DNA of 57,610 nt from assembly GCA_017621795.1 (NCBI GenBank), contig JAGASJ010000009.1, positions 1 to 57,610 of the forward strand. The letters run 5' to 3'. The translations under genes were made by a program, and so were the position numbers. This DNA comes from Oscillospiraceae bacterium (lineage in GTDB: Bacteria; Bacillota; Clostridia; Oscillospirales; Oscillospiraceae). Below, in pieces: positions 11,894 to 37,131 of the stretch. Under the pieces are notes generated by a model. It searched no databases. It was not told where the DNA came from and worked only from the letters and a program-made list of their open reading frames with translations. Each line of letters opens with the position of its first letter. The first letter of the stretch is position 1.

Positions 11894-12493
11894 ATGAAAA
11901 GACTGATTACATTACTTCTCGCAATCTTAATGGTTGTCGGCGTTTTCGCAGCCTGCGGCAAAGCTGACCCCACAGATCCCCCCGCAACCAACCCCCCTGC
12001 AACCAACCCCCCTGCAACGACCGCACCTGCCGCAACCAATCCTGTAGAGCCCGATTCTAAAGTGATTGTCGCCGGCAGCCTGAGCAATCACGAGAACGGC
12101 TGGGAAGTTGAAGCCTGGAATCCCAATGCTTCCGGCGTTTACTTCAATCTGTGGGCCAATGACCTGCCCTACAACTCCGACTGGTCTGTGCGGTATCAGC
12201 CCCACAACGGCGATAGCGTAAAGCTGATCCGTGACGGTGAAGTATACCCCCTGGGCGGCCCCGGTGTTGATATGCTGGTAAAGTTTAGTGCTAACGGTTA
12301 CCAAGTGGTTTGCGACAAGTGGATCACCCAGGAGCTGTTCCCCTTGCAGGAAGGCGACGTGCTGATCATTGAGGGCGATTTCACCAACCCCGAAAATGGC
12401 TACACCATCCACTTCGACAAGACCTATGCACAGCTGAAGGTCGGCGGCATCACCAAGTTTACCACCACCGCTCCCGAGGGCATTACTGAGTAA
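11894..12493 (+). CDS. Lipoprotein with a single copy of the locus-specific repeat
   Basis: A signal peptide with lipobox VFAAC (Cys20) is followed by a Pro/Thr linker of PPATN tetrads (about 25-50), and then one domain of about 135 residues. The domain carries the marks of the repeat found ten times each in the proteins at 26600 and 31066: a G-x-(M/L)-x-x-H-x-N-G-W opening, YF then (N/D)-D-(L/V)-P-Y, a W-x-(V/M)-R-Y strand, KLIRDGE, and GDVLIIEGDFTN followed by a KTY strand. This is the first gene after the control region, with AGGAGG at 11879. It is likely a surface protein, possibly binding glycan; that role is inferred only from context. Confidence 0.8.
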   Translation: MKRLITLLLAILMVVGVFAACGKADPTDPPATNPPATNPPATTAPAATNPVEPDSKVIVAGSLSNHENGWEVEAWNPNASGVYFNLWANDLPYNSDWSVRYQPHNGDSVKLIRDGEVYPLGGPGVDMLVKFSANGYQVVCDKWITQELFPLQEGDVLIIEGDFTNPENGYTIHFDKTYAQLKVGGITKFTTTAPEGITE

Positions 12494-12516
12494 TTTATAC
12501 GGTACATCATCGTTTA

Positions 12517-12543
12517 CCGGAGTCGGGGATACCCCGACTCCGG
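12517..12543 (+). terminator. GC-rich hairpin between repeat lipoprotein and transporter genes
   Basis: A perfect 12-bp stem (12517-12528 with 12532-12543) has a 3-nt loop. TCTTTTTCTC follows only 7 nt later, so it may terminate partly and set a higher level of the first gene. Confidence 0.55.
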
Positions 12544-12620: not shown

Positions 12621-12654
12621 AACTCAACTTACATTTATGAGGAGGAAATCAAAA

Positions 12655-14274
12655 ATGAAAAAGACCCTTGCGCTTTTGCTTTCTATGGTGATGATGCTCA
12701 CCTTGTTTGCCGGCTGTGGCGTTGGCGTTGAAAAGGGCGGCGAGAACGTCGTCGAAGCCGATCCCAGCAAGGCTTCCATCACCGTTGCTACTTGGGACGG
12801 CGGTTTGGGCAGCCAGTGGCTGGAAAATGCCGCAGAGCTGTTTGAAGAACAGTATAAGGACGCCACCAACTTTGAAGAAGGCAAGGTAGGCGTTGAAATC
12901 AACATTGTAGCAAGCCGCAGCTTTGACGGCTCTGCGATGGCCTTCACCCCGCTGACCCACGATATTTATTTCGTAGAGGCTGTGGACTATTTCGCAATGA
13001 TCAACAACCGTCAGCTGGCCGACATTTCCGATGTAATGACTGCCCCCCTGACCGCCTACGGTGAGGATGGCACCATTGCCGATAAGCTGGATCCCACACT
13101 GGATGCATACCTGACTAACATCGACGGCAACTATTATGCAGTTCCCTTCTACGAGACTTATTACAGCTTTGCTTACGACCTGGATCTGTGGGACGCAAAG
13201 TCCTTCTATGTTGCGGCAAACGGCGGCTGGACCGATGCATCCGGCGACCTGTCTGCCGGTCCTGACGGCGTGGCCGGCACCGAGGATGACGGTATGCCTG
13301 CCACCTATGCAGAGTTTGCAAAGCTGATCACCCGTATTTCCGATGCGGATGTTACCCCCTTTGTGACCGCGGGCAATGCCCAGGATTACGTGGCAAACTA
13401 TCTGTATCAGCTGTGGGCCGATTATGAGGGCGCAGAGCAGATGCTGCTCAACTACACCTTTGACGGCACTGCTACCGACCTGATCGATGTGGATGGGAGC
13501 GGCAACGTTACCAAGCTGCCCGCCACCGAGATCACCATCGACAACGGCTATATGCTGCAGAAGCAGGCAGGCCGTTATGCAGTATTGCAGTTCTGCGAGG
13601 ACATTCTGCTCAGCAGCGACAGTAACTATAAGATCATTGATACCCACGTGAACGCACAGAAGAGCTTTGTCAGAGGCGGTATTGCCAACGATCAGCCCAT
13701 TGCCATGATCGTGGAAGGCTCCTGGTGGGAAAATGAGGCCAAGCAAGCCCTGAAGGACCTGGAAAGCGGCGGCTACGAGCGTCACAACTACGCGGTTATG
13801 CCTCTGCCCCATGCCACCGAGGAGCAGATCGGTCAGACACCTACCTGGCTGGCCATGAGTAACTCCTACGGCTTTGTTGCAAGCAACTGCGACAATATGG
13901 ACCTGGCAAAGGAATTTATGAAGTTCCTGCACACCGATGCAAACCTCCGCGCCTTTACCCAGGAGGTCAATATGACCAGAGCACTGCAGTATGAGCTGTC
14001 TGAGGAGCAGATCGACGGCCTGAGCACCTACTGTAAGTCCATCCTGAATCTGAAGAAAAACAGCAATGTGATCTACCCGGTGTCCCTGGTAGACGAGGTC
14101 AACAACAATAACATTATGTTCGCGGCTTACACCTGGGCCTGGCAGACCAACATCAACGGCTACGATTTCAAGAACCCCTGGCTGTATTTCAAGGATGAAA
14201 AGGATACCTCTGCGGAAAGCTACTTTAACGGTCAGTACCAGAACTTCGAGACCAAGTGGAGCGCAATTTTCTAA
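12655..14274 (+). CDS. Carbohydrate ABC transporter solute-binding lipoprotein
   Basis: The start is the ATG at 12655 after GAGGAGGAAATC. The 539-residue protein has a signal peptide with lipobox LFAGC (Cys20). The mature part follows the family-1 pattern: SITVATWDGG at the first strand, then FEEQYKD, VEGSWWENEAKQAL and GFVASNCDNMDLAKEFMKFL in the second lobe. It is longer than typical maltose-type binders (about 400-450) and carries inserts around residues 190-260 rich in Asp and Gly (DGVAGTEDDG), a possible calcium loop. It is encoded directly before the two permeases, so it is the capture subunit of the importer. By context the ligand is an oligosaccharide; the sequence does not show which. 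Confidence 0.9.
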   Translation: MKKTLALLLSMVMMLTLFAGCGVGVEKGGENVVEADPSKASITVATWDGGLGSQWLENAAELFEEQYKDATNFEEGKVGVEINIVASRSFDGSAMAFTPLTHDIYFVEAVDYFAMINNRQLADISDVMTAPLTAYGEDGTIADKLDPTLDAYLTNIDGNYYAVPFYETYYSFAYDLDLWDAKSFYVAANGGWTDASGDLSAGPDGVAGTEDDGMPATYAEFAKLITRISDADVTPFVTAGNAQDYVANYLYQLWADYEGAEQMLLNYTFDGTATDLIDVDGSGNVTKLPATEITIDNGYMLQKQAGRYAVLQFCEDILLSSDSNYKIIDTHVNAQKSFVRGGIANDQPIAMIVEGSWWENEAKQALKDLESGGYERHNYAVMPLPHATEEQIGQTPTWLAMSNSYGFVASNCDNMDLAKEFMKFLHTDANLRAFTQEVNMTRALQYELSEEQIDGLSTYCKSILNLKKNSNVIYPVSLVDEVNNNNIMFAAYTWAWQTNINGYDFKNPWLYFKDEKDTSAESYFNGQYQNFETKWSAIF

Positions 14275-14298: not shown

Positions 14299-15237
14299 AT
14301 GAAACGAATTGATCAGATCAACGCACCTGGCGGTATCCGAAGACGGCACCGCGACAGGGCGGACAGAACCTTTTATACCATTATGATGATCCTGCCGGTG
14401 GTGCAGCTTCTGATCTTCTATTTTGGTGTCAATTTTCAGTCCATTTGTATGGCGTTCCAAAAATATGACGCAAAAAACAACGTATTTATTTGGGATACAT
14501 CCAAGAATCTGACCCTGTTTAAAATTGACATCCAAATGGCGGGCTTTTGGAAGATGGTTTCAAATTCCCTGTCGGTATGGCTGTTTACCAGCCTGTCCGG
14601 CACGGTTTTGGCGGTGACCTTTGCGTATTACATATACCGCAGAAATCTGATGAGCAACTTTTTTAAGTTTGTGCTGTTTCTGCCTTCCGTGCTGCCCGGC
14701 ATTTTGCTGGCGGTCATGTACAAGAAATTTGTGGGACTGGGCGTTCCGGCCTTTATGAATTATCTGTTCGATACCACCGTCAGCGATGTGTTTAACGCCG
14801 GTGCCGCAGGCGGCAGAGTCAATCTGATCACGCTGTTTACCGTTTGGGTCAGCTTTGGCCCGCAGGTGCTGGTGTATACCGGTGCTATGGACCGGGTCGA
14901 TCCGGCAATGTTGGAAGCGGGGCGGCTGGACGGTGCATCTCCGCTGCAGGAGTTCTTTAAGATCATTTTCCCGAACATCTCCTCCACGGTCAGCACCTTC
15001 CTGATCATTGGTGTGTCGTCCATCTTCACAAATCAGAACAACCTGGTCAGCTTCCTGGGCTTTGATACCACCACCGCTGAAAGTACCATCGGTTACTACC
15101 TGTACAAAAAGGTGTATGAGGACTTCCAGCGCAAGTCCGGCTTCTGCTACGCCGCCTTCCTGGGCCTGATCTGCACCATGATCGTCATTCCGCTGGCCTT
15201 TGGCGCAAGAAAACTGTTTGACAAGGGGGATGACTGA
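14299..15237 (+). CDS. Sugar ABC transporter permease (first)
   Basis: The 312-residue protein has about six membrane segments. The cytoplasmic coupling motif EAGRLDGASPLQEFFKIIFP near residue 215 is the EAA loop that contacts the ATPase (EAA-x3-G-x9-I-x-LP in the MalF/UgpA family). GGAAAGAAG is the ribosome binding site. The stop at 15237 is one nt before the start of the second permease, so the two are co-translated as a heterodimer. Confidence 0.93.
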   Translation: MKRIDQINAPGGIRRRHRDRADRTFYTIMMILPVVQLLIFYFGVNFQSICMAFQKYDAKNNVFIWDTSKNLTLFKIDIQMAGFWKMVSNSLSVWLFTSLSGTVLAVTFAYYIYRRNLMSNFFKFVLFLPSVLPGILLAVMYKKFVGLGVPAFMNYLFDTTVSDVFNAGAAGGRVNLITLFTVWVSFGPQVLVYTGAMDRVDPAMLEAGRLDGASPLQEFFKIIFPNISSTVSTFLIIGVSSIFTNQNNLVSFLGFDTTTAESTIGYYLYKKVYEDFQRKSGFCYAAFLGLICTMIVIPLAFGARKLFDKGDD

Positions 15238-15238
15238 T

Positions 15239-16135
15239 ATGCGACTGAAGCCACAAAAAAGAAAAAAGCCGGATGCGCTGAGCATCGGCATCGGTATTTT
15301 GCTGTGTGTATATGTGATCGGCCTGTTTGCGCCGATGATCTGGACCGTCATCATCTCCCTGATGGACCCGGATGCGTACTACAGCTTCTATCAGGAAGGC
15401 ACGGCCGTTCCCTTTGCCTTCACCACAGAAAACTTTAAAAATGCCATCCCCCATATCAAGGTGACCTCGGAGACCACCAGCCTTACCTACAATATGGTGG
15501 GCCTGTACATCAACTCCCTGAAGTTCGCTGTATTCAGCGCACTGGCATTCACCGTCTGTTCCACCATCGTCAGCTATCTGACCGCACGGTTTGATTTTAA
15601 GTTTTCCAAAATCGTCTACGGCTTTGTGATCGTGGCCATGAGCCTGCCCATCGTGGGCAGTATGCCCTCGGAAATTCAAATGCTGCAGAATTTGGGCATT
15701 TACGGGCAGTGGATCAGCGTACCGATTTTGCGTTTTAACTTCTTGAGTGTTTATTTTTTGGTGTTCCACGCCACCTTCCGGGGAATCTCAAAGGAGTATT
15801 CCGAAGCGGCGAAGATCGACGGTGCATCCAACCTGCGGATCATGCTGCGGGTGGTCGTTCCCCAGGCAATGAACATTATCGTGACGGTTTTTGTCATTAT
15901 GTTTATCACCTATTGGAACGATTATCAGGTACCCATGCTGTATCTGAAGGACTATCCGGTGGCCGCATACGCGGTATATCAGTTTGTGAACACCACCCGC
16001 AACGCCGCTTTCAACAGCTCCGTGCCTCTGCAAATGGCAGGCACGCTGCTGATGACCCTGCCGGTGCTGCTTACAGTAATTATTTTCAACAAGCGACTGA
16101 GAGTATCTGTTTCGATTGGAGGAATTAAAGGCTAA
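15239..16135 (+). CDS. Sugar ABC transporter permease (second)
   Basis: The start is the ATG at 15239, 8 nt after AGGGGGA; earlier in-frame starts lie inside the first permease gene. The 298-residue protein has about six membrane segments and an EAA loop, EAAKIDGASNLRIMLRVVVP, at about residue 191. This is the MalG/UgpE-type partner. Its stop overlaps the next start codon (TAATG). No ATPase gene occurs in this operon, so a shared MsmK/UgpC-type ATPase encoded elsewhere is expected. Confidence 0.93.
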   Translation: MRLKPQKRKKPDALSIGIGILLCVYVIGLFAPMIWTVIISLMDPDAYYSFYQEGTAVPFAFTTENFKNAIPHIKVTSETTSLTYNMVGLYINSLKFAVFSALAFTVCSTIVSYLTARFDFKFSKIVYGFVIVAMSLPIVGSMPSEIQMLQNLGIYGQWISVPILRFNFLSVYFLVFHATFRGISKEYSEAAKIDGASNLRIMLRVVVPQAMNIIVTVFVIMFITYWNDYQVPMLYLKDYPVAAYAVYQFVNTTRNAAFNSSVPLQMAGTLLMTLPVLLTVIIFNKRLRVSVSIGGIKG

Positions 16136-17544
16136 TGAAAAAGAGTTTTTCGTTACTGCTTGCCTGCCTGCTGATTTTCGGCCTGTGTCTGCCGTCTGTA
16201 GTCCGTGCTGAAAAGGATGTGGAAAAAACCATCAGCCTGCCTGCCGCTTTGATGAAAGGCCATACCTATGACCTGCAGATCGCAGACGGCAAGCTCAGCG
16301 TTAACGGCGAAAGCTGTGAGGGCACCTTCGTGGCAGAAGGGGCGCAGGCAGTGCTCGCATACACCGATGGGGAAGGGAATGCCATCGCTTCCTACACCCT
16401 GCCGGTAATCGATACCAAGGAATCTGCCGACCACTGTGCCTATTTCTATGATCCCTCCGGGGCAGTGGCCAAGGCAGAAAATGAAAACGATATTACACTT
16501 TCCTTCTCCAAGGATTGCACGGTTTTTTTCCTGACAAAGCTGAATCCGGAGGACCTGGCAATGTATTTTGCTGTGGTGGAGGAAAAGGGCAGTTTTGATG
16601 AAGTCCACTTCACCCTGACCGATGCGGAAAACGCCACCAGAAGCCTGACCTTTACCGTGAATATGGCGGCAAAGACGGTTTATATGGGCAATGAAAAGGC
16701 ACAGCTGGAGGACCTGTTCGATATCGTGCAGCTGCGCTATAAGGATGCAAGCCGAAAGCTGATGCTGGGCAACGACAAGGAGCTGTTTTCCTGTCAAAAG
16801 GACGCAAACGGAGAAGACTTTTCCGGCTTCCCCGGCGGTGTATACCTGACGGTGCAGGTGAAAGGGGTCAAGGGTGCAAGCGCTCTGCGGATGACCAGAC
16901 TGGGTAACCACCCCTTAGGGCACAAGGGCAGCGACAGCCCGGATATGGTGGAGCCGACCGTGGCAATTACTTCTTCCATTTCCGGCACCATGCACATGGA
17001 TGATGTTTTTCAGTTCCCCTCCTATGAGGTATACGATGTGTACAGCCCTGTGGCACAGAGTAGTATAACGGTGGAAGCCCCGGACGGCACGGTTTATACC
17101 GAGGACTTTACGGCTTCCCAGTATGGCCAGTACAAGCTGACGATCAAAGCAAGCGACAGCTTTGGCAACCAGTGTAAAAACATCAAGATGCTCTTTGTCA
17201 ATGATGATATCGTGCCGGAGCTGACTGTTTCTCAGATGGAAAAAACATCCTACAAGGTGGGCGACAAGGTAAAGATCCCCACCTATACCGCCAGTGACAA
17301 CTTAGGCGTGTGCAATGTGGATGTCATTTTGTTCCTGCCCAATGCGGAGATCCGCTTGCTGACCCACGATGCTTCCGGTGAGGTGACCTACTGCCTGACG
17401 GATTCGTCCCTCTATAGCGCAAGCTTTATAGCGGATAACAGCTCCTTTAAGGCAGAGCAGACCGGCAAGTATATCATCCGCTATGTAGCTTATGACGACC
17501 AGTACAACCGGGTCGTTCAGGAGCTTGCCTTTTCTGTGCAGTAA
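16135..17544 (+). CDS. Secreted Ig-like protein of the glycan locus
   Basis: The start overlaps the permease stop, so it is translationally coupled. A signal peptide (about 1-25, ending VRA) is followed by beta-rich domains. Residues about 85-265 may be one carbohydrate-binding-like sandwich. Residues about 270-469 hold two Ig/Bacterial-Ig-like units (VEPTVAITSSISGTM ... DFTASQYGQYKLTIKASDS; VPELTVSQMEKTSYKVGDKV ... TGKYIIRYVAYDD). There is no lipobox, sortase motif or C-terminal anchor, so it is released or held non-covalently. No catalytic family was recognised. Its place between permeases and the DUF4838 enzyme suggests glycan capture or support at the surface. Confidence 0.65.
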   Translation: MKKSFSLLLACLLIFGLCLPSVVRAEKDVEKTISLPAALMKGHTYDLQIADGKLSVNGESCEGTFVAEGAQAVLAYTDGEGNAIASYTLPVIDTKESADHCAYFYDPSGAVAKAENENDITLSFSKDCTVFFLTKLNPEDLAMYFAVVEEKGSFDEVHFTLTDAENATRSLTFTVNMAAKTVYMGNEKAQLEDLFDIVQLRYKDASRKLMLGNDKELFSCQKDANGEDFSGFPGGVYLTVQVKGVKGASALRMTRLGNHPLGHKGSDSPDMVEPTVAITSSISGTMHMDDVFQFPSYEVYDVYSPVAQSSITVEAPDGTVYTEDFTASQYGQYKLTIKASDSFGNQCKNIKMLFVNDDIVPELTVSQMEKTSYKVGDKVKIPTYTASDNLGVCNVDVILFLPNAEIRLLTHDASGEVTYCLTDSSLYSASFIADNSSFKAEQTGKYIIRYVAYDDQYNRVVQELAFSVQ

Positions 17545-17558: not shown

Positions 17559-19505
17559 ATGAAGAAAAAGCTTTCTTTTGTCCTTGCGGCGGTGATGCTC
17601 CTGAGCCTTCTGCTGTGCGCCTGCGGTTCCGGGTCGGATACCAAGGCTATGAAAACAAAGCTGACCGATCAATATTTGGTACAGCAGGGCGTTTCCAACT
17701 ATGTATTGGTGCTGCCCAACAGCGCAATGATGTACGAGACCTATGCCGCCCAGGAGTTTGCTTATTTTATAGAGCAGGCTACCGGCTGTAAGATCGAGAC
17801 CGTGACGGAAACCACGGTGCCTGAGGGGAAAAAGTACATCTCCCTGGGCAAGACCAACCAGTTTATGGCGGCCTTCCCCAAGGAGACACTGGAAGAGGTC
17901 GCGGGGACCATGTCCTCTTACCTGATCGCCTCCAAGGACGACAATATTTATATTGCCGGCAGCAAGGACCACCGCGGTCAGGCTGTGCTGTGGGGCGTTT
18001 ACGATGTTTTAAACGACCTGATCGGCTATACCTACTATCATAACACCGAAATATTCTATACAAAATCCGCGGATGTAAATCTGTGGAAGTACGACAGAAA
18101 TGTGGTTGTGCCTTCCTTCGATATGCGCACCCACTCTACCAACTACATCTACGCCTTCCCCAACGATACCCACGGTATTCGCCTGCGTTACATCAATTTC
18201 TCCCGCGGTCTGGAATGGGATCCCATGACCGTCGGTCACAGCCAGGTCTACATTTTCCTGGCGCCCAGAGATGAGGATGAAAACGGTGTCTGTTACGGAC
18301 AAAGCCATCCGGAGTGGTTCCTGGATCCCACGGCGCCCGGCGTTGCAAAGAATGAAAATCAGCTCTGCTGGACTGCCGGCGGTGATCCGGAGAGCCTGGA
18401 TCTGATGCAGACGGTGATCGCGGAGAAAATGCTGCATTTCGTGCAGATGGACTCTGACGCTACCTTCTTTATGCTGGGTCAGCAGGATACCGAGTATGTC
18501 TGCCAGTGTGCAGGCTGTACCAAGGCACTGAGTGAATGGGGCGGCTCTGCCTGCGGATTGCAGATCGACTTTGTCAACGGCGTGATCGAAAAGACTGAAG
18601 AGCTGATCCAGCAGAATTGCCCCGGGCGGGATGTGCTGTACGCCATCTATGCCTATAAGCCCACGGAAACGCCCCCGGTGAAGACCGATGCAAACGGCGA
18701 TTACGTCCCCTACAGCGATCGGATCATTCCCCATGAGAAGCTGCGTGTATTTTTCGCCCCCGTGCGTCTGAACTTCGGCTTCCCCTACGATTCCCCCTAT
18801 AATGCCGATGCCTACAAGAATCTGCAGGGCTGGGACGCAGTCTGTACCGATGAGCAGCTGATGGTTTATACATACGACCTGAATATCCATCAGTATTTTG
18901 TCAACTTCTTCAACCTGGGAACCATCGCAAGCCACATGCAGGATTATGAAAAGGCCGGCGTTTCCTATTTGCTGAGCCAGGGCATCTCTGATGCCAACGC
19001 CACCTGCTTCGATGAGCTGCGTGCCTACTGTATTTCCCGCCTGATGTGGGATACGAGCCTGAACACCCAGGAGCTGGCGGCAGACTTTATCGACCATTAT
19101 TATAAGGATGCATCTGACGCGATGCAGACCCTGTTCGATATGATCGTAGAGCAGAACGCCTGGTATTTGGCGGTGGAGGATCCCGGCAGCGGTGTTGCCA
19201 CCGGCCTGACCTACAACACCACCTGCTATCCCCGTGCCTTTGTGGAAAAGATGGATGCGCAGATTTTTGCGGCAATGGATGCCATTGCCCATTTGGAAAG
19301 CAGCGATCCGGAGCAGTACGAGCTGCTGAAGGCAAGAATTATGAAGGAGTACCTTTCCAATATCTATCTGAAAATGGTGCTCTACAGAGATTTCTATACA
19401 GAATCCGAGATCAGTGCGATGAAGGAGATCTGGAACGAGTACATCTCCTACTGGAATATCAAAAAGGGCGGCGAGGGTGCTGACCTGCCCGACATTTTTG
19501 CGTAA
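17559..19505 (+). CDS. DUF4838/GH163-like lipoprotein, candidate endo-acting glycosidase
   Basis: The 648-residue protein has a signal peptide with lipobox LLCAC (Cys22). An N-terminal domain similar to the small alpha/beta domain of GH20 enzymes (about 35-160; AAQEFAYFIEQATG) is followed by a DUF4838 barrel (about 180-500). The family's cysteine-rich signature is present as TEYVCQCAGC (about 310). A helical C-terminal region follows (about 500-640). Some DUF4838 proteins form GH163, endo-beta-N-acetylglucosaminidases that release N-glycans; many others are untested. A lipid anchor puts it outside, ahead of the importer. With beta- and alpha-mannosidases next door, an N-glycan-cleaving role is a reasonable inference but is not proven by the sequence. 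Confidence 0.75.
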   Translation: MKKKLSFVLAAVMLLSLLLCACGSGSDTKAMKTKLTDQYLVQQGVSNYVLVLPNSAMMYETYAAQEFAYFIEQATGCKIETVTETTVPEGKKYISLGKTNQFMAAFPKETLEEVAGTMSSYLIASKDDNIYIAGSKDHRGQAVLWGVYDVLNDLIGYTYYHNTEIFYTKSADVNLWKYDRNVVVPSFDMRTHSTNYIYAFPNDTHGIRLRYINFSRGLEWDPMTVGHSQVYIFLAPRDEDENGVCYGQSHPEWFLDPTAPGVAKNENQLCWTAGGDPESLDLMQTVIAEKMLHFVQMDSDATFFMLGQQDTEYVCQCAGCTKALSEWGGSACGLQIDFVNGVIEKTEELIQQNCPGRDVLYAIYAYKPTETPPVKTDANGDYVPYSDRIIPHEKLRVFFAPVRLNFGFPYDSPYNADAYKNLQGWDAVCTDEQLMVYTYDLNIHQYFVNFFNLGTIASHMQDYEKAGVSYLLSQGISDANATCFDELRAYCISRLMWDTSLNTQELAADFIDHYYKDASDAMQTLFDMIVEQNAWYLAVEDPGSGVATGLTYNTTCYPRAFVEKMDAQIFAAMDAIAHLESSDPEQYELLKARIMKEYLSNIYLKMVLYRDFYTESEISAMKEIWNEYISYWNIKKGGEGADLPDIFA

Positions 19506-22034: not shown

Positions 22035-22036
22035 AA

Positions 22037-26599: not shown

Positions 26600-29500
26600 A
26601 TGAAGAAAAATAGTATTTGGAAGATCCTCGTACTGGCAACCTTGGTGCTTTCTATGTGCTTGCCCTTTGCCGGGTGCAGAAAAACACCGTCCGGCGATGG
26701 AGAGCAGATCACCACAGGTCCGGCAACCGATACGCAGCCGGATCAGACCGAGCCGGGTCCCAGCCAGCCCACTGAGCCGGATGAAGAGCCTGTGATTCTG
26801 CAGGCAGGTGCGATGAAAAAGCACATGAAGGGTAAAAACGGCGATATGGGCATCTATTTTATGATGGATCCCAACGACGTGCCGGTGGATACCTCCTGGG
26901 CAACGGAATTCCGGCCCACCAGCAAAAGCGCCATTCAGCTGATTCGTGGCGGTGAAACCTATGATATCGGCAAAACCGCTGCCGGTATGATCATCAAGTA
27001 TTCCGAAACGGAGTACTACCTGAAGCTGGAAGAATACCTGATTCGGGAGTACTTCCCTGTCCGAAACGGAGATATTCTGAAAATAGAGGGTATTTTCCGC
27101 AATGCGGCGGTGGATACCATGTTCCAGATCGATACCAGCTACATACAGATCTCTGAGGGACTGGTGTTCTTCTCCACAGAGTATCCCGAGGGTGGCGGCG
27201 TCAGTGTAAAATACGTGGGCCATCCCACCAGCCATCCCAACGGCAAGACGGCAGACGGCATCTATTTCAAGCTGGATAAAAACAGCGTACCGTATAACAA
27301 TTGGACAGTAGAATACAACCCTGCTTCCGAGAGCTCTGTGCAGCTGATCCGCAATGGCAACACCTACAATATCGGCAACAAGGCCGCCGGTACGATTGTC
27401 AAGTATAACGATACGGATTACTACCTGAAGCTTGAAAAGTGGATCATCAAGGATTTCTATCCCATCCGGGATGGGGACGTGATCGTGCTGAATGGCAAAT
27501 TCGTCAATTCCGGCGTGTCCACTGTGTTTAGCATCAGCAAGACCTATATTTCCATCAACGAAGGTCTTTTGACCTTCTCCACCGAGTATCCCACGGAAAA
27601 TGAGGTAGAGGCACAGGTGATTCCCACCATGCTGCCCCATCCCAACGGCTTTATCGGCACCGGTGTGTATTTTATGGCGGCAGAGGAAAACACCCTGCCC
27701 TATGACGGCTGGACGGTGGAATACTTCCCCAGAGAAGCAGGTTGCATCAAGCTGATCCGCAACGGTGAAACCTATGATATTGCCAATGTGAATGCCGGCA
27801 GTATTGTGAAGTTCTCCGATAAGGAATACTACTTTAAGCTGGATCAATGGATGTACCAAAAATATTTTCCTTTTGGTGACGGTGATATTCTCATTGTAGA
27901 GGGTAAATTTGTCAATGCAGGTCTGGCAGGCCTGATGGAGATCGGCAAGACCTATATCGCCATCAGTAGCGGCATGGCGTATTTCTCCACAGAATACCCC
28001 GACGGTCCTGTTGGCCCCACAAAGATTCAGGGCGGCGCAATGCTCAGCCATCCCGACGGCTGGAAAGCAGACACGAACGGCGGTCTGTACTTCAAGCTGG
28101 AAGCCGGTCAGGATGCGCCCTTTGCCACCGACTGGAGCATGCGTTATGTGCCCACTTCTGCTGATGCGATCAAGCTGATCCGTGACGGTGTGACCACCAA
28201 TGTGGCCAATACCGCCGCAGAAATGATCGCCAAGTACCGGGAAGACAGCTATTACTTAGAATTCTGGCCCATCAGTATGAAGCCTATCGTAGAGGGTGAT
28301 ACCCTGGTCATCGAGGGCAGCTTTGTGAACGCCGCCAACAATGTGGTGCTGGTGATCGATAAGACCTATGTGACCATTGAAAACGGTCAGCCTGTCTTCA
28401 CCACCGATAAAGAGTTGGTGATCGAGGCCGGCCATATGCAGCCTCACGATAAGGGCTTTAACACAGATTCCAATGACGGGCTGTACTTTAAGCTGGATGC
28501 AAATGATGTGCCTTATGACGGTTGGAATGTGGAATACGAGCCCGTTTCCGCAGCCTCCATCCAACTGGTCCGAAACGGCGAAACCGTCAATATCGGTATT
28601 CCCGGCAGAGGCACGATCGTCAAGTATTCGGATACAGAGTATTATCTGAAGCTTGCGGCCTGGACGATCGGAGATCATGCGCCCATCGTGCCCGGTGACA
28701 AGCTGATCGTTGAGGGTCAGTTCAAAAATGCTGAAAACGGCGTGATCTTTAACATCAGCAGAACGGCCATTACCGTAGGCGAAGACTACAGCCTGACCTT
28801 TACTTCTGAGGAAGCGGTGGATCCCACCATTCAGGCAGGTATGATGGTTAGTCACCCCAACGGCTGGAACACCGCCAATAACAAGGGCCTGTATTTCACA
28901 ATGGCATCCAACGATGTGCCCTTCAGTGACGATTGGCAGACCTTCTACTATCCCACAGAAGCAGGCTGCATCAAGCTGATCCGTGGCGGCGAGACGGTAG
29001 ATATTGCCCAGACAGACAGAGAATTTATTGTCAAGTACGGCGATACCGACTATTACCTGAAGCTGGAAAAATGGACCATTGGGGATTACTTCCCCTTAGT
29101 GCCCGGCGACACGCTGATCGTAGAGGGCAAGTTTAATGATCCCATTGCCGGTGTCGTATTCAGCGTCACAAAAACCTACATTACCATCGGTGAAAACTAC
29201 AGCCTGACCTTCTCGGAGAATGCCCCCGAGACAGAGCAGCCGGACGATCCTGTGGCAGAGACAGACGGCCCGCTGAAGCCCCACCACGAAAAGGGTATTC
29301 AGATTAACGGTGCAGAGCACTTGATTTACGCTGAAATGGACGCCAACAGTGGCGTGCAGAACGGCTGGGAGACCGAGTATACGCCTGTTGCGGCAGGGGG
29401 CCTAAAGCTGGTACGTGGCGGCGCAACCTACGATATCGGTAATCCCGGTCAGGGCACTTTGGTGAAATACACCGATACGGAATACTGCCTGAAGATCGCA

Positions 29501-30946
29501 CCCTGGACGGCTACCGGAAACCATCTGCCCATGGTAGCAGGCGATCAGATCATCGTGGAGGGCGCATATATCGGCAGAGCCGGCACCTCCTGCGAGGGCA
29601 GTACCATCACCATCCAAAAGACCACCATCACCTATAACACCGACGGCACATTGACCTTTGCATCGGATGCGACCACCGAGCCCGAAGATCCTGAAGTGCC
29701 TGCTGATCACGGTCCGATGGCGGCCCACGGCACAAACGGCTGGACAGCTACCGGTGGCTTGTATTTCACGATGGCGAAAAACGATGTACCTTATAACGGC
29801 TGGAATACCCGGTATACTCCGGTGGCAGCTTCCTGTGTGAAGCTGATTCGCGGTGGCACGACCTACGATCTGGGTCACACAGCCCGGGAAACCATCGTCA
29901 AGTATTCCGATACAGAGTATTACTACGAATTCTGGACTTTGGATACCTACAAGCCGGTGGTTGCCGGTGATGTGCTGATCGTAGAGGGTGACTTTGTCAA
30001 TAAGGCAAACGGTGCAACGCTGAGCATTGCCAAGACCACCATTACCTTTAATGCTGATGGCACAGCCACCTTCCAAAGCGAAGTGACTGAGCCGGAGCAG
30101 CCCGCCGATCCCGAGCTGCCGGATCCGGAGCAGGACGGTCTCGTTCTGAAGGCCTGGGAGGAAAAGGCGTGGAATACAAGCTCCAACGACGGCTTTTGGT
30201 TCACAATGGACCCGAATGATATTCCTGCAGACAGCACCTGGGTGCTGGAATACACCCCGGTCAGCGAGGATGTGCTGAAGCTGGTGCGGGGCGGCGAAAC
30301 GGTGAACATTGCCATTCCCGGCAGAGGAACACTGGTGAAGGCCAGCGAAGCAGAGTACTATCTGAAGCTGGACTGGAACATCGGCGACTATTCCAAGACC
30401 ATTACAGTGGGCGATCAGATCATCGTAGAGGGTGATTTTACCAACGCATCCAACGGTGTAACCTTCACCGTGAAGAAAACCACGGTTACCGTTGGCGAAA
30501 ACTATGTTTTGACCTTTGAAAGCGAAGAGGATGCACCGGAGGACGGTGCCATTGCGGTGGGCCCAATGACTGAAAACGCCAGCGGCATCACAGACGGCAT
30601 CATCTACTTCACCTTGGCAGACAATGATCTGCCCAGCAGCCTGACAAAGTCGGATTTCCGTCCTGTGGACAGCAGTGTGATCAAGCTGATCCGTGGCGGC
30701 GTAACCTATGATGTGGCTGATAAGCTAGCCAAAACCATGGTCAAACAAACAGCCTCCAAGTATCGACTGCTGCGCAGTGCACTGACCATGCAGCTGCAAA
30801 GCGGGGACATTTTGGTGGTGGACGGCAAATTCATCGGCGGCAATACCGACAAAGAGGAAGTATATACCATCTCCATTGATAAAACCTACATCTTCATTGG
30901 AGACGGTGTGGTGAGCTTCTCCACAGAGCTTCCCGCCGAGGAATAA
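26600..30946 (+). CDS. Giant lipoprotein of ten 130-residue repeats
   Basis: The ATG at 26600 follows AAGGAAAGGAG. The 1448-residue protein has lipobox PFAGC (Cys26) and a Pro/Thr/Gln linker to about 62. Then come ten tandem repeats of about 130-145 residues to the C-terminus. The consensus is G-x-M-x-x-H-x-N-G-W, (L/I)YF-x-M, NDVPYDGW, Y-x-P-x-(S/A), IKLIRGGETYDIG, TIVKYSDTEYYLKL, W-x-I, GD-x-LIVEG-x-F-x-N, and (I/V)-x-KT-(Y/T)-I, ending FSTE. Pro/Glu linkers part the last units. Strand-rich units and aromatic residues suggest a beta-sandwich, possibly binding sugars. The last unit is most diverged. No catalytic domain was found. It is a surface-anchored repeat protein of no family known to me. 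Confidence 0.85.
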   Translation: MKKNSIWKILVLATLVLSMCLPFAGCRKTPSGDGEQITTGPATDTQPDQTEPGPSQPTEPDEEPVILQAGAMKKHMKGKNGDMGIYFMMDPNDVPVDTSWATEFRPTSKSAIQLIRGGETYDIGKTAAGMIIKYSETEYYLKLEEYLIREYFPVRNGDILKIEGIFRNAAVDTMFQIDTSYIQISEGLVFFSTEYPEGGGVSVKYVGHPTSHPNGKTADGIYFKLDKNSVPYNNWTVEYNPASESSVQLIRNGNTYNIGNKAAGTIVKYNDTDYYLKLEKWIIKDFYPIRDGDVIVLNGKFVNSGVSTVFSISKTYISINEGLLTFSTEYPTENEVEAQVIPTMLPHPNGFIGTGVYFMAAEENTLPYDGWTVEYFPREAGCIKLIRNGETYDIANVNAGSIVKFSDKEYYFKLDQWMYQKYFPFGDGDILIVEGKFVNAGLAGLMEIGKTYIAISSGMAYFSTEYPDGPVGPTKIQGGAMLSHPDGWKADTNGGLYFKLEAGQDAPFATDWSMRYVPTSADAIKLIRDGVTTNVANTAAEMIAKYREDSYYLEFWPISMKPIVEGDTLVIEGSFVNAANNVVLVIDKTYVTIENGQPVFTTDKELVIEAGHMQPHDKGFNTDSNDGLYFKLDANDVPYDGWNVEYEPVSAASIQLVRNGETVNIGIPGRGTIVKYSDTEYYLKLAAWTIGDHAPIVPGDKLIVEGQFKNAENGVIFNISRTAITVGEDYSLTFTSEEAVDPTIQAGMMVSHPNGWNTANNKGLYFTMASNDVPFSDDWQTFYYPTEAGCIKLIRGGETVDIAQTDREFIVKYGDTDYYLKLEKWTIGDYFPLVPGDTLIVEGKFNDPIAGVVFSVTKTYITIGENYSLTFSENAPETEQPDDPVAETDGPLKPHHEKGIQINGAEHLIYAEMDANSGVQNGWETEYTPVAAGGLKLVRGGATYDIGNPGQGTLVKYTDTEYCLKIAPWTATGNHLPMVAGDQIIVEGAYIGRAGTSCEGSTITIQKTTITYNTDGTLTFASDATTEPEDPEVPADHGPMAAHGTNGWTATGGLYFTMAKNDVPYNGWNTRYTPVAASCVKLIRGGTTYDLGHTARETIVKYSDTEYYYEFWTLDTYKPVVAGDVLIVEGDFVNKANGATLSIAKTTITFNADGTATFQSEVTEPEQPADPELPDPEQDGLVLKAWEEKAWNTSSNDGFWFTMDPNDIPADSTWVLEYTPVSEDVLKLVRGGETVNIAIPGRGTLVKASEAEYYLKLDWNIGDYSKTITVGDQIIVEGDFTNASNGVTFTVKKTTVTVGENYVLTFESEEDAPEDGAIAVGPMTENASGITDGIIYFTLADNDLPSSLTKSDFRPVDSSVIKLIRGGVTYDVADKLAKTMVKQTASKYRLLRSALTMQLQSGDILVVDGKFIGGNTDKEEVYTISIDKTYIFIGDGVVSFSTELPAEE

Positions 30947-31065: not shown

Positions 31066-34000
31066 ATGCAAAAACTTGCAAATCGAATCCTTGGCGCGCT
31101 GTTAGTATTGGTAATGATCATTACCATGCTGCCGGCAACCGTATTCGCAACCAGCGAAACGGACGTCTTCGCGGGCTGGAGCTTGACGCTGGGTGAGGAC
31201 ATCGGCGTAAACTTCTACCTGTCGCAGACAGCAGCGGATTATACTGTGGACATTACTGTCGCAGGAAATGAAGCTGCATACACCACAGCCACAAAAGACG
31301 GTTACTATGTGGTAAGCGTCAATGTTGCGGCTGCACAGATGACCGATTTGATCACCCTGACGGTGACAAACGGTGAACAAGTGATGCATACCGGCGAATA
31401 CTCTGTCCGTCAGTATGCGGAAATCATCCTTACAGGCGCGTACGACGATGAGGTAAAGCAAATGGCAAAGCAAATGCTGAACTTAGGTGCAGCAGCGCAG
31501 ACCTACTTTGCCTACAACACAGGTATGCTTGCCAACAAGGATTACGAGATCGATACCCCTGCGGCAGTTCCCACAGAGGTACCTGCCATTGCGCTGGAAG
31601 ACAATCTGGACGGCGTCAGCCTGTACGGTATGTCTTTGCTCTTCCAGTCCAAGACGGCAGTACGTTTCTACTTTGTCGTTGACGGCAATGTGGCAGACTA
31701 CACCTTCAAGGTAAAGGAAACGGAATATACCCCTGTAAAAAAGGACGATCTGTACTATGTGGAGGTTGGCAACATCAACCCCCAGGATCTGGGCAGTGAA
31801 ATGACCGTTACGGTCAATGATGCCCTGACTGTTTCTTACAATCCTTTAACCTACATTGTAAGAAAGTACAACAGCGACAGCACATCTGCTGCCCTGAAGA
31901 ATTTGGTGCAGGCGCTGTACGGCTACCACCTGGAAGCCCTGGAGTATCAGGAATATCAGAAGATCATTCAGGTTGGCGCGCTGCAGCAGCACAGCAACAA
32001 TACGCCCTGGGTCAAGAGCGACAGCGAGACCTTTATCTACTTCAACACAGATGCGTATACTGCAACCACCGGCGAGTACACCTCCCTCACTGCCGATGCC
32101 ATTAAGCTGGTTCGGGGCGGGGAAGTTTACAGTGTGGCAAATCCCGGCCAGGGTCTGCTGGTGAAGGATACCGACACCCAGCATCTGCTGAAGATCACGC
32201 CCTGGGGTATGACCGGCGGTCATTTGCCCATCCAGGCTCATGATTACTTCATTATTGAAGGCCGCTTTGAAAGCACCAGCGGCGACGGCACCACCATTCA
32301 GATCGCCAAGAGCTATGTTTACTTTGATGGCACAAACGTGGAAATTTCCACAACAGAGCCCATCCTGCCCACCGTGATCGATGCAGGTACAATGAGTGCC
32401 CACAGCACAACCGGTTGGAAATCCAGCGCAGAAGCGGCTGGCAATCTGCTGTTCGCAATGGCGGATAATGATGCGCCCACCGGTTACTACAGACCCACAG
32501 ATGCAAGCAACGTGCAGTTGATCCGTGGCGGCAATACCTACGTGGTAGGTCATAACCTGAGAGATACCATTTCCAAGGAAAACAATGCACAGTATGTCTT
32601 TGAGTTCTGGACCATTGCAGACCACAAGCCCATGGTTGCCAACGATATTCTGGTGGTTGAGGGCGATTTCTATCAGGAAAGCACCAAGACGACGCTGAAT
32701 ATCAGCAAAACCTATATTTTGCTGAATGCAGACGGCACAGCAACCTTCTCTACCGAGATGCCCACGCTGGCAACTGTGATTGATGCAGGTGTGATGAGCA
32801 GCCACTCTAATGGCTGGAGTGCAGACGCACTGTACTTCTCTATGGCGGAAAATGAAGCACCCATTGACGATGCTATCCGCTATAAGCCCGAAGCAGCATC
32901 CAACCTAAAACTGATTCGTGACGGCGTAACCTATGATGTAGGGCACACCGCAAGAGAGACCATTGTAAAATCCAGCGATACAGGATATTACATTGCGCTT
33001 TGGGTATTGGGTGATTACAAGCCTCTGGTAGCAAATGATATTTTGGTGGTAGAGGGCGGCTTTACCAATGCTGCAAACAATACCACGCTGAATATCAGCA
33101 AGTCTTACGTTTTGATCAATGCAGACGGCACAGCAACCTTCTCTACCGAGATGCCCACGCTGGCAACTGTGATTGATGCAGGTGTGATGGGCAGCCACTC
33201 TAATGGCTGGAATGCAGATGCACTGTACTTCTCTATGGCGGAAAATGAAGCACCCATTGGCGATGCTATCCGCTATAAGCCCGAAGCAGCATCCAACCTG
33301 AAACTGATTCGTGACGGCGTAACCTATGATGTAGGTCACACTGAAAGAGAGACCATTGTAAAATCCAGCGATACAGGATATTACATTGCGCTTTGGGTAT
33401 TGGGTGATTACAAGCCTCTGGTAGCAAATGATATTTTGGTAGTAGAGGGCAACTTCACCAATGCTGCAAACAATACCACGCTGAATATCAGCAAGTCTTA
33501 CGTTTTGATCAATGCAGACGGCACGGCATCCTTCTCCACCGAAATGCCTGCTTTGAAAACCGTTGTGGACGCAGGCGCAATGAGCGCGCATGCAGACGGC
33601 TCTGCATCGGAGATCTACTTCTCCCTGAGCGAGAACGCTGTTCCTGTGGATGAAAATGCAGAAACTGCTTATGCCGGCAGTGTACAGCTGGTCAGAAGCG
33701 GTGCTGTATCCACTGTGAGCGCCAACATTTACAAGCTGGATGAAGGCTATTACTACTTAGAGCTGGACGGCGTGGAGCTGGCTGACGGCGACTATCTGGT
33801 CGTGGAAGGCGCATTCTCCAATGCCAATAACGGCTACACGATGAACATCACCAAGACCTATGTTTTGGTTGACGGCGAGACCTTGGTCTACTCCGCAACA
33901 GAGCCGGTCTTTGAGACGGAATTTGCCCTTACCGGCCTGACCAACCACTCCAACGGCTGGTCTGCTGACGGCATCTACATTGCCCACGATGCCCACGAAG

Positions 34001-37000
34001 CAACCGTCGGTACGGATTGGAGTGTCCGTTACAGACCCGTTTCTGCGGATGTGATCAAATTGGTGCGTGATGGCGAGACCTTTAATATTGGTCAGCCTGC
34101 AGGCGACACACTGGTCGTTTACGGCAACACCAATCTGTACTTTGAGACAAAGGCCTGGACGACCCAAGGCGGCAAGCTGCCCTTCGTAGACGGTGATCTG
34201 ATCATCATCGAGGGCAAGTTTAAGCACGAAGCCAGCGGTAGTATTTTGGCAGTGGAGAAGACGGAGATCTATGTAAGCAACGGCAGCCTGATCTTCAACC
34301 CCATCCTTGCCGGCAGCCTGAGCAATCACCCTGTCAATGGCGTTTATAACGAGGGCATCTATGCCTCTATGGCAGAAAATGCAGCACCCTATGACGGCTG
34401 GAACATCGAATATACCCCTGTGACTGCCGATTCCTACTATGTGATCCGCAACGGCGAGCAGATCAACATTGGTATCCCCGGCCGCGGCACATTGGTAAAA
34501 TACAGCGAAACAGAGTATACCCTGAAGATCAACGCCTGGTGTACCAACAACTTTGCCTACACCACGGACGATATCATTGTTGTTGACGGTTTCTGGAGAC
34601 AGAATACCCAGGGCGATGCGATCATGAAGATCGAAAAGACCTATCTGTACTATAACGGCTCTGCCTGGACCTTTGCCACCAAGCTGCCCAGCGTGATCAG
34701 CGGCGGTACGATGCAGACCCATACAAAGGGTATGTGGGGCAATGGCATCTCCTTTACAATGGCGGCAAACGATGCGCCCTTCAACAGCGACTGGACTCTG
34801 GAATACAAGCAGACCAGCACCGATAATATTAAGATCATCCGTGGCGGCGAGACCATCAGCATTGGTATCGTTGACAGACCTCTGATCATCAAGATCAGCA
34901 ATGATGAGTATTATCTGAAGCTGGAAGGCTGGACCATTGGAAACTACGGTCTGAACAGCACAAGCCCCATCACCACCGATGATGTGATCATCGTGGAAGG
35001 TAACTTTGTGTATGAAAATGTGACCTTGAATGTCACCAAGTCCTATGTCTACTATAACGGCTCTGCCTGGGTCTGCTCTGCGGAAGCGCCCGTGCAGAAG
35101 AATATAGTCGATGTAGTGGAATTGGGCAGCCACAGCAATGGCTGGAAAAGCGGCGGCTTCTACTTCACCGCTGCTGCAAATGATGCGCCCTATGATACCA
35201 CATGGGCACTGCGTTATAAGCCCGTTTCTGCCGATGTGATCAAGTGCATCAGCGGCGATACCACCACCAATGTGGGCAACACCGGCGGCGAGACCATCGT
35301 GAAGTATTCTGAAACAGAATACTACGTCGAGGGTTGGGCAGTTGGCTCTGCAAACCTGGCAGCAGGCAATACATTTGTGATTGAAGGTCAGTTCTACAAT
35401 GCTGCCAACGATGTCTACATGGATGTAGAAAAGACCTATATTATCCTCAATGCAGACGGCACTACTACTGTGCTGACTGATGCCGACAAGTACATCAATG
35501 CCGGTGCAATGAGTGCCTACAGCGAGAAAAACTGGTTCAATAACAACTATACCGCCCTCTATTTCGTGCTGGAAAGCAACAATGCACCCGCTGATGAGGG
35601 CTGGAGTGTGCGGTATAAGCCTGCATCTGCCAACAATGTAAAGCTGGTACGCGACGGCACGACCTACACCATCGGCAACACCGGCGCAGAGACCATTGTC
35701 AAGATTGCAGACGGAATCTATGCCCTGGCGCTGGATAGCTGGTGGTGGAGCGCATACGCACCCATCCGGGACGGCGATCAGCTGATCATCGAGGGTGAAT
35801 TCAGCAATGCTTCCAACGGCTACATCCTGAATATCACGAAAACCTACATCACCTTCGTTTCCAATGCGGAGGACAATGTGATCTTCAATGCCGCGGCAGA
35901 TACTGAGTTTGGCGATGTGCTGCTGCCCAGCACCAACGATACCCTGACCATTGGTGTATGGAACGGTTCTTATCACGTATTTGAAGATCAGCAGCTGAAG
36001 GAACTGAAGGCTGCCGGTATCACCAAGATTATGGGCATTGATACCCAGTGGATTGGCACCACCGATGTGAATGCATGGCTGGATCGTGTATACAGCTACG
36101 GCATCTCCGTGATTATGGATCTGCGCAGCTGGGACGGCGAAACCGTACCTGCCTATGCAAGCCATCCCGGTGTTCTGGGCTTCCTGATGTACGACGAGCC
36201 TTGCGCAACCGAGTTTGACAACCTGGCTGATCTGAAAGCTAAGTTTGATGCAGTTATGCCTGCTGATAAGCTGTTCTATGTGAACCTGTTCCCGTCCTGT
36301 GCTGCCAAGAGTTCCTTGTATGGCGGCTGGACCATTGGAAAGAATTATGAAACCCATTATGTCCAGCAGTTCCTGGATAAGCTGGGTGTTGAGGTTCTGT
36401 CCTGGGATAACTACTCCCTGCTGGATGGCAACGGTATCCGTACCGATTACTTCTACAACTTTGAGGTTATGGCATCCAAGACCGCAGAGAAGTGGTACAC
36501 GATGCTGTCCTCCGGCCACAGCACAACCACTACCTCCTACGCAACACCCACCGCGGACGAGCTGCGTTGGCAGATGGCGGTTGCCATGACTTACGGTGTG
36601 CAGAACATTGACCACTACACCTATGTCTCTCACGAAGATGACTACAGCTGTATGGTTGAGTACGACACCTGGAAGCCCACAGCTCTGTACTACGATATCC
36701 TGCAGGTCGATAACGAATATCTGGCTTGGGACAACATCTATATGGCATACAACTGGATCGGCGTTGGCACATACAGTGCAAACTCCAACAACTCTATGCT
36801 GACCCAGCTGGAGAACAGCCTGAATTTGGCCAACCATGGCATTACCGCAACCTCTGCAAGTGAGAACCTGCTGATCGGTGTATTCGAGAACAATGGCAAC
36901 AAGGCTTATATGGTCACCAATGCAGGCTCTGCCGGCTCCACCACCGTAGGCGACGGCAAGAACTTCTCTATGGCAGACACCTCTGTGACATTGACCCTTG

Positions 37001-37131
37001 CAGATGGCGACTACAAGTGCGCCGCCGTCATCGACAACGGTGAGATCACATTCGTTGCTGTGAACAACAACCAGGTCACCCTGAATGTGGAAGCATACGA
37101 AGGCGTCTTTGTCATTCCCGTTCTGAACTGA
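31066..37131 (+). CDS. Giant secreted protein: N-terminal module, ten repeats, TIM-barrel domain
   Basis: The ATG at 31066 follows AAAGGAAGCG. The 2021-residue protein has a signal peptide (about 1-29, ending VFA) and no lipobox. Residues about 33-300 form the module shared with the C-terminus of the first protein in the window (GWSLTLGEDIGVNFY ... NLGAAAQTYF ... VTVNDAL). Residues about 305-1610 are ten repeats of about 130 residues of the same kind as in the 26600 protein. Units three and four are nearly identical in DNA as well. Residues about 1620-2021 are a TIM-barrel domain paralogous to the 24977 lipoprotein (LTIGVWNGSY, GFLMYDEP, ending GVFVIPV). No sortase signal or S-layer domain is seen, so how it stays at the cell is unclear. 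Confidence 0.85.
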   Translation: MQKLANRILGALLVLVMIITMLPATVFATSETDVFAGWSLTLGEDIGVNFYLSQTAADYTVDITVAGNEAAYTTATKDGYYVVSVNVAAAQMTDLITLTVTNGEQVMHTGEYSVRQYAEIILTGAYDDEVKQMAKQMLNLGAAAQTYFAYNTGMLANKDYEIDTPAAVPTEVPAIALEDNLDGVSLYGMSLLFQSKTAVRFYFVVDGNVADYTFKVKETEYTPVKKDDLYYVEVGNINPQDLGSEMTVTVNDALTVSYNPLTYIVRKYNSDSTSAALKNLVQALYGYHLEALEYQEYQKIIQVGALQQHSNNTPWVKSDSETFIYFNTDAYTATTGEYTSLTADAIKLVRGGEVYSVANPGQGLLVKDTDTQHLLKITPWGMTGGHLPIQAHDYFIIEGRFESTSGDGTTIQIAKSYVYFDGTNVEISTTEPILPTVIDAGTMSAHSTTGWKSSAEAAGNLLFAMADNDAPTGYYRPTDASNVQLIRGGNTYVVGHNLRDTISKENNAQYVFEFWTIADHKPMVANDILVVEGDFYQESTKTTLNISKTYILLNADGTATFSTEMPTLATVIDAGVMSSHSNGWSADALYFSMAENEAPIDDAIRYKPEAASNLKLIRDGVTYDVGHTARETIVKSSDTGYYIALWVLGDYKPLVANDILVVEGGFTNAANNTTLNISKSYVLINADGTATFSTEMPTLATVIDAGVMGSHSNGWNADALYFSMAENEAPIGDAIRYKPEAASNLKLIRDGVTYDVGHTERETIVKSSDTGYYIALWVLGDYKPLVANDILVVEGNFTNAANNTTLNISKSYVLINADGTASFSTEMPALKTVVDAGAMSAHADGSASEIYFSLSENAVPVDENAETAYAGSVQLVRSGAVSTVSANIYKLDEGYYYLELDGVELADGDYLVVEGAFSNANNGYTMNITKTYVLVDGETLVYSATEPVFETEFALTGLTNHSNGWSADGIYIAHDAHEATVGTDWSVRYRPVSADVIKLVRDGETFNIGQPAGDTLVVYGNTNLYFETKAWTTQGGKLPFVDGDLIIIEGKFKHEASGSILAVEKTEIYVSNGSLIFNPILAGSLSNHPVNGVYNEGIYASMAENAAPYDGWNIEYTPVTADSYYVIRNGEQINIGIPGRGTLVKYSETEYTLKINAWCTNNFAYTTDDIIVVDGFWRQNTQGDAIMKIEKTYLYYNGSAWTFATKLPSVISGGTMQTHTKGMWGNGISFTMAANDAPFNSDWTLEYKQTSTDNIKIIRGGETISIGIVDRPLIIKISNDEYYLKLEGWTIGNYGLNSTSPITTDDVIIVEGNFVYENVTLNVTKSYVYYNGSAWVCSAEAPVQKNIVDVVELGSHSNGWKSGGFYFTAAANDAPYDTTWALRYKPVSADVIKCISGDTTTNVGNTGGETIVKYSETEYYVEGWAVGSANLAAGNTFVIEGQFYNAANDVYMDVEKTYIILNADGTTTVLTDADKYINAGAMSAYSEKNWFNNNYTALYFVLESNNAPADEGWSVRYKPASANNVKLVRDGTTYTIGNTGAETIVKIADGIYALALDSWWWSAYAPIRDGDQLIIEGEFSNASNGYILNITKTYITFVSNAEDNVIFNAAADTEFGDVLLPSTNDTLTIGVWNGSYHVFEDQQLKELKAAGITKIMGIDTQWIGTTDVNAWLDRVYSYGISVIMDLRSWDGETVPAYASHPGVLGFLMYDEPCATEFDNLADLKAKFDAVMPADKLFYVNLFPSCAAKSSLYGGWTIGKNYETHYVQQFLDKLGVEVLSWDNYSLLDGNGIRTDYFYNFEVMASKTAEKWYTMLSSGHSTTTTSYATPTADELRWQMAVAMTYGVQNIDHYTYVSHEDDYSCMVEYDTWKPTALYYDILQVDNEYLAWDNIYMAYNWIGVGTYSANSNNSMLTQLENSLNLANHGITATSASENLLIGVFENNGNKAYMVTNAGSAGSTTVGDGKNFSMADTSVTLTLADGDYKCAAVIDNGEITFVAVNNNQVTLNVEAYEGVFVIPVLN
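32761..33546 (+). repeat. Two near-identical 393-bp tandem units inside the 2021-residue protein gene
   Basis: The unit starting CCCACGCTGGCAACTGTG at 32761 starts again at 33154, 393 bp (131 codons) later. The two units differ at only a small number of bases, whereas other repeats in the same gene share only the amino acid consensus. This is a recent in-frame duplication or gene conversion. Part of the boundary sequence also occurs at the end of the preceding unit. Confidence 0.9.

Follow-up and report, generated by a model that had tools for sequence, protein, structure and literature searches.

The window, by which we mean the whole 57,610-nucleotide stretch of Oscillospiraceae DNA analysed here (assembly GCA_017621795.1, contig JAGASJ010000009.1), carries an ordered set of genes that begins with a small lipoprotein gene and continues with genes for an ABC solute-binding protein (SBP), two permeases, an exported protein, a DUF4838 protein, a GH2 enzyme, a GH38 enzyme and a protein that combines a Big_2 domain with a TIM barrel (Table 1). 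Two giant genes, a second GH38 gene and an FAD oxidoreductase gene follow. Genes for alpha-mannosidase, beta-mannosidase and a sugar ABC transporter are thereby found together in one locus, where we take the mannosidase and transporter roles from knowledge of the families. An initial annotation of this DNA had placed a repeat shared by the small lipoprotein and the two giants in a glycan locus, and the GH2 gene, both GH38 genes and the sugar transporter genes do neighbour these proteins.

Signal and lipobox assignments were made by reading N-termini by eye. Read in this way, the 11894 and 26600 proteins have lipoprotein-like starts. The start of the 31066 protein resembles an ordinary signal, and no anchor was recognised in it; the surface location proposed earlier relies on these readings. 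In the GH2 and GH38 proteins a signal peptide was not seen.

Table 1. Genes and domains of the glycan locus, in order of position in the window
Feature	Position	Strand	Evidence or remarks
GntR/LacI-type regulator, divergent from unit lipoprotein	10382..11494	-	PF00392 E 1.4e-11; PF13407 E 2.4e-11
Single-unit lipoprotein	11894..12493	+	unit at about 12065-12484; lipobox-like start; CAI 0.646
Probable sugar ABC solute-binding lipoprotein (SBP)	12637..14274	+	TIGR03851 E 1.6e-14
ABC permease genes, two	14299-15237 and 15200-16135	+	PF00528 E 1.8e-11 and 9.2e-15
Exported 469-aa protein	16135..17544	+	weak Ig-like or OmpL47-type matches
DUF4838 lipoprotein-like enzyme candidate	17559..19505	+	PF16126 E 9.5e-35; GH163-type by literature label; no PDB sequence match
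GH2 beta-mannosidase	19626..22034	+	E 4.2e-118 to solved beta-mannosidases, residues 18-787
GH38 alpha-mannosidase	22037..24964	+	PF01074 E 2.5e-78; Ams1 E 1.1e-122
Big_2 + GH42-like TIM barrel, lipoprotein-like	24977..26584	+	Big_2 E 2.8e-9; Glyco_hydro_42 E 3.7e-5
1448-aa lipoprotein-like giant, ten units	26600..30946	+	array about 26798-30940
2021-aa exported giant	31066..37131	+	N-terminal domain, ten units, hydrolase-like C-terminus
2021-aa giant, N-terminal domain (~270 residues)	about 31150-31960	+	
2021-aa giant, ten-unit array	about 31963-35898	+	
2021-aa giant, hydrolase-like C-terminus (~410 residues)	about 35902-37128	+	
Second GH38 alpha-mannosidase	37311..39806	+	PF01074 E 5.1e-56; Ams1 E 2.6e-60

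The same unit of ~130 residues had been reported once in the 11894 protein and ten times in each giant. A profile built from the units recovers this distribution (1, 10 and 10) and gives zero matches in 300 shuffled sequences (100 for each of the three proteins), and the coordinates and unit counts of the initial annotation are correct. The weakest of the 21 full units scores an i-Evalue of 1.3e-34 and the single unit of the lipoprotein 1.2e-52; residues 198-236 of the 31066 protein, at 0.016, are too weak to be counted as a further unit.

Mean column identity across the 21 units is 44%. Gly100 (numbering follows the unit at 28418) is invariant, and Tyr40, Arg52, Gly54, Lys69, Tyr75, Asp94, Phe102 and a column of Lys or Arg at 115 are nearly so. 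Over 55 units from the window's own genome (G000) and genome G092, Tyr40, Arg52, Asp94 and Gly100 stay at 90% or above. Trp36 and an aromatic residue (W, Y, F or H) at position 82 are both present in 67 of 84 full units, with 10 units lacking Trp36 only, one lacking the aromatic only and six lacking both, counts that provide no independent test because the units share descent. Units without either residue include unit 5 of the 2021-aa protein, its counterpart in genome G1286 and unit 5 of a 2062-aa protein on contig C50 of the own genome. This pattern would suit a ligand platform that was lost in one subtype; alternatively, it may reflect a loop difference, and the two residues may belong to the core or to loops.

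When the 21 units were scanned against Pfam-A (best E 0.02), NCBIfam 20.0 (best E 0.043) and PHROGs 4 (best E 0.0064, in one unit), matches stayed at chance level and no family was identified, in agreement with the earlier statement that the unit fits no recognised domain. None of the known glycan-binding families in these libraries matches the unit. Profile searches of PDB sequences likewise gave chance-level matches only, the best two of which, at E 0.0048 and 0.006, cover ~35 columns of designed TIM barrels. Structure prediction, a step suggested in the initial annotation, yielded a confident fold for the unit but no confident solved relative; the nearest structural neighbours are weak and include S-layer, archaellin and FN3-type domains. 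Bacterial Ig-like and FN3-type tandem repeats of surface proteins share with the unit arrays a tandem arrangement of all-beta domains in large exported proteins as well as this weak structural similarity. The units differ from them in showing no Big or FN3 sequence match in any of the 21 copies (Pfam), in their length and in their conserved Trp/Tyr/Arg/Lys set. No description of such a repeat was found in the titles and abstract openings listed by searches of open-licence papers. That the unit is a lineage-restricted all-beta module forms part of our best overall explanation, to which we assign slightly less than an even chance.

The own genome, a 2.03 Mb draft that is 89% complete, holds 43 unit matches, which lie on the contig of the window (C90) and on contigs C50 and C80. 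The earlier claim that the units occur all in one glycan locus thus applies to the three named proteins but not to the genome. Four of 136 genomes of the same genus match (G000, G1286, G164 and G176, the last at no better than E 5.9e-4), and none of the 40 genus genomes that are at least 90% complete does. In a draw of 150 genomes from the family, matches are confined to the own genome and G092, which belongs to another genus whose other member does not match (1/2). Outside the own genome, none was found in draws from the order (1/394), class (1/391) and phylum (1/299, at E<=0.01), although the draws overlap and the initial screen may miss distant relatives. A record from an Oscillospiraceae MAG of roe deer colon (JAFTVV010000005.1) matches and was taken as the same as G1286. 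Plasmid records gave no match to the 1448-aa protein, and a viral_contigs scan with the G092 giant returned no relative. The unit family is real and rare and has no name in the libraries searched, and its setting is of a known kind.

Divergent units were detected with a wider profile (E about 5e-5) in G176 and on contig C22 of the own genome, one in each, within a large protein made mainly of other repeats. The G176 unit used as sole query finds the C22 unit and, at E 5.9e-5, one C50 unit, with matches in G176 and the own genome only (2/149). Tyr40, Lys69, Asp94 and Gly100 are retained in these divergent units and Trp36 and Arg52 are not; they may represent an older single-copy form. Both genes (L058 1606-6645 and L052 4184-11110) lie beside ABC permease genes. 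A GH123 gene is also near the one on C22, and, judged by eye, the C-terminus of the G176 protein is likely to be a membrane anchor.

The single-unit lipoprotein is present in all four genomes with strong matches (G000, G1286, G164 and G092) and directly precedes the SBP in the three whose contig covers that side. G092 retains the lipoprotein, SBP, two permeases, DUF4838, GH2, GH38 and a giant at 37-63% identity, and its giant comprises 13 units together with a Big_2 and a TIM domain; upstream of this locus, no homolog of the window regulator was found. In G1286, the genes from the lipoprotein to the 1448-aa giant and, on another contig, the 2021-aa giant and second GH38 are 82-97% identical to those of the window. 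An ABC ATPase gene and two uncharacterised genes (7775-10372, minus strand) adjoin the regulator, in a neighbourhood that is kept in G164 and G1286, and perhaps constitute a second, linked exporter. On contig C50, an SBP gene is followed by genes for a 1550-aa unit protein, two TIM proteins, a protein scoring just under the GH127 cut-off, the 2062-aa unit protein and a GH2 enzyme. The unit protein on C80, by contrast, adjoins alaS and a peptidase gene and not a sugar locus, and its G1286 counterpart is also beside alaS; in the stretch read around each, no sugar gene was seen. This C80 protein of 1776 residues (L037 4177-9507) also carries Listeria-Bacteroides repeats and, near its C-terminus, a Hint-like stretch (Hom_end_hint E 0.0011, below cut-off) from which self-cleavage might follow; a sortase gene is located ~5 kb away.

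Unit arrays are joined to a hydrolase-like domain in two proteins of the own genome and in proteins of G092, G164 and G1286. The C-terminus of the 31066 protein is 45% identical to the product of the 24977 gene over 420 aligned columns. With the TIM-domain fusions, and with GH2, GH38 and DUF4838 neighbours in two genera, the unit is an independent module that is joined to carbohydrate-active enzymes or encoded close to them, as would be expected of a carbohydrate-binding module, contig C80 being the exception. An Asp-Glu-Pro (DEP) motif is present in seven of eight aligned copies of the TIM domain. In the G092 giant (L039 216-7052) the motif reads Asp-Ala-Pro, and the fused domain there may have lost catalysis; because of this Glu-to-Ala change, we regard the fused TIM domains only as candidate active enzymes. 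The N-terminal domain of the 2021-aa protein is common to the C80 unit protein and to a truncated gene at the window start (2-4033). An alignment of 291 columns (32%) pairs the C-terminal part of the truncated gene product with the N-terminal domain of the C80 protein, and the alignment between the G1286 counterpart of the C80 protein and the 2021-aa protein starts at residue 1. This domain has no PDB sequence match.

Codon adaptation (CAI) was scored with 24 ribosomal genes as reference (leave-one-out mean 0.723) and compared with 36 mechanically chosen background ORFs (median 0.396, maximum 0.698), of which possible non-genes would lower the median. The unit lipoprotein and the SBP score 0.646 and 0.647, the giants 0.527 and 0.573, and the unit proteins on C50 and C80 0.632, 0.573 and 0.529. 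DUF4838 scores 0.565 and the other locus genes 0.386-0.501, with 0.422 for the Big_2/TIM gene. The unit genes are predicted from this codon usage to be well expressed.

Between the own genome and G1286, dS is 0.158, 0.295 and 0.261 for the unit genes (the giants being compared in part only), 0.205 for the Big_2/TIM gene and 0.449-0.880 for the other seven genes, while dN is similar in all of them. Across 11894-37131, dS of the unit and Big_2/TIM genes is thus about half or less of that of the other genes. Codon bias alone was rejected as the cause, because CAI is equally high in the SBP gene, where dS is 0.449, and only middling in the Big_2/TIM gene, where dS is low. The unit and Big_2/TIM genes may have been exchanged between lineages. 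Values of dN/dS are 0.17-0.32 for the unit genes and 0.06-0.19 for the other eight genes; selection on the unit genes is purifying and weaker than on the other eight.

In the 2021-aa protein, units 3 and 4 share 95% identity and also show up as a 393-base tandem repeat. In one C50 protein, units 2-4 are 80, 86 and 92% identical, in order, to units 6-8; in the other, units 4 and 5 are 96% identical, and one C50 unit is 89% identical to a C80 unit. These tandem and segmental copies suggest that unit number and order change by duplication. In the G1286 fragment, nothing corresponds to unit 7, and a second, partial unit-8-like copy stands at the contig end, a difference that may alternatively result from assembly collapse.

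Published accounts point to a possible substrate. N-glycan mannoses are substrates of GH38 and GH2 enzymes, a Bacteroides thetaiotaomicron GH163 cleaves GlcNAc-beta-1,2-Man (PMC10154615), a DUF4838 protein is labelled GH163 in a table (PMC9870897), and Streptococcus pneumoniae imports Man5GlcNAc through an SBP and two permeases (PMC5215778). On these grounds, a mannose-containing, N-glycan-like sugar would be the likeliest substrate. The best NCBIfam model for both GH38 proteins is mannosylglycerate hydrolase, far below cut-off, and for this reason another mannoside is possible. It also counts against an N-glycan that the Pfam scan of 29 window proteins detected no glycan-releasing enzyme (GH18, GH85 or PNGase).

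The S. pneumoniae uptake system (NgtS-NgtP1-NgtP2, EndoD, GH38, GH92 and GH125) shares an SBP, two permeases and GH38 with the window, and in that Gram-positive system import precedes demannosylation, the order that we propose here; repeat-unit proteins are not named in the part of the account consulted (PMC5215778). In place of GH85, GH92 and GH125, none of which occurs among the 29 scanned proteins, the window has DUF4838 and GH2.

The explanation that we favour, with a confidence that falls just short of even, is that uncultured gut Oscillospiraceae use the units to capture carbohydrate at their surface. The single-unit lipoprotein, predicted to be well expressed, would sit by the transporter's SBP, and the ten-unit giants would serve as long multivalent arms that keep a mannose-containing, N-glycan-like substrate close to the cell. 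Exported DUF4838 and TIM-barrel proteins, the latter including one with a fused array, would cut the substrate, the ABC transporter would take in the fragments, and GH38 and GH2 enzymes in the cytoplasm would strip their mannoses. The repeat and its restriction, the kept gene order, the TIM fusions, the codon adaptation and the duplications are observed. Within this scheme we infer the export of each part, the binding of glycan by the units and the identity of the glycan. Glycan capture is supported by the order lipoprotein-SBP-permeases-DUF4838-GH2-GH38-giant kept in a second genus, by the C50 giant that again follows an SBP in the company of TIM genes and GH2, and by the fused arrays and the single-unit lipoprotein of all four genomes with strong matches. 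The high CAI of lipoprotein and SBP and the frequent aromatic pair point the same way. The strongest point against it is the unit protein adjoining alaS on C80 and in G1286. It is further weakened by the lack of a match to any known glycan-binding family in the libraries searched, by the 17 of 84 units without Trp36, the aromatic or both, by the altered DEP motif in G092 and by the SBP, which is only distantly NgcE-like (TIGR03851 53.7 bits against a cut-off of 399.65) and has no PDB sequence match.

The units might instead be Ig-like beads of a passive stalk, with no ligand of their own and no role beyond holding out a terminal enzyme or bridging the wall. The 0-7 residues between adjacent units of the 31066 protein, the nature of the weak structural neighbours and the freedom with which duplication alters copy number would all be expected of such a stalk, which we nevertheless consider rather unlikely. 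Most telling against it is the one-unit lipoprotein, which forms no stalk and yet keeps its place beside the transporter in two genera, and whose codon adaptation is high; in addition, the array of the 26600 protein runs to its C-terminus and leaves no enzyme to project.

It is improbable that the units dock surface or host proteins and assemble enzymes as cohesins do, even though many similar units stand in giant chains near enzymes and the C80 protein lies away from sugar genes. Cohesin scaffoldins similarly repeat a beta domain many times along one exported chain in the vicinity of hydrolases. A scaffold of the cohesin type is unlikely here, given a single dockerin match against 43 units in the 89% complete genome and no cohesin family among the Pfam matches of the 21 units at E up to 1. 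Finally, an OB-fold repeat that binds oligosaccharide or nucleic acid is very improbable: PF01336 matches the GD-x-LIxEG stretch of the 11894 protein at E 0.0017, but with 18.7 of the 27 bits required for its gathering cut-off and with one of 21 units matching (E 0.02), and none of the fold-search matches listed carries an OB-fold description, an absence that has no weight of its own.

A bolder reading, which we regard as doubtful, is that a new glycan-binding family has been amplified in one gut lineage. Its members would form 'glycan antennae', multivalent and ten to thirteen modules long, with a one-module lipoprotein that passes N-glycans to the ABC SBP. They would be a functional counterpart, in a Gram-positive lineage, of the surface glycan-binding proteins of Bacteroidota, and modules gained and lost rapidly would tune them. 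The likeness to the proteins of Bacteroidota polysaccharide loci lies in the proposed holding of glycan at the surface next to a transporter. The differences are that no SusC/SusD-type match is present in the scanned proteins, that the cell envelope is of another kind and that the units are unrelated by the searches made. For gut bacteria that lack an outer membrane, the gathering of large glycans before import has been described less fully than for Bacteroidota. Should the units bind glycans, they would offer a testable set of parts that ranges from the one-module lipoprotein up to arms of thirteen modules, as well as a new family of binding domains. Should they not, they would still be a repeat family that is young and duplicates fast, and its possible origin can be followed back to the single divergent unit of related proteins.

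Elsewhere in the window, the segment 45440-57422 contains a tRNA-Leu gene, then a type IIG restriction-methyltransferase gene (45959-49207) and, at a greater distance, the candidate defence genes PDC-S57 (at 55117) and PDC-S01 (at 55974). The restriction-methyltransferase and PDC genes all have low GC3 (0.37-0.44), and the segment is perhaps a defence island at a tRNA.
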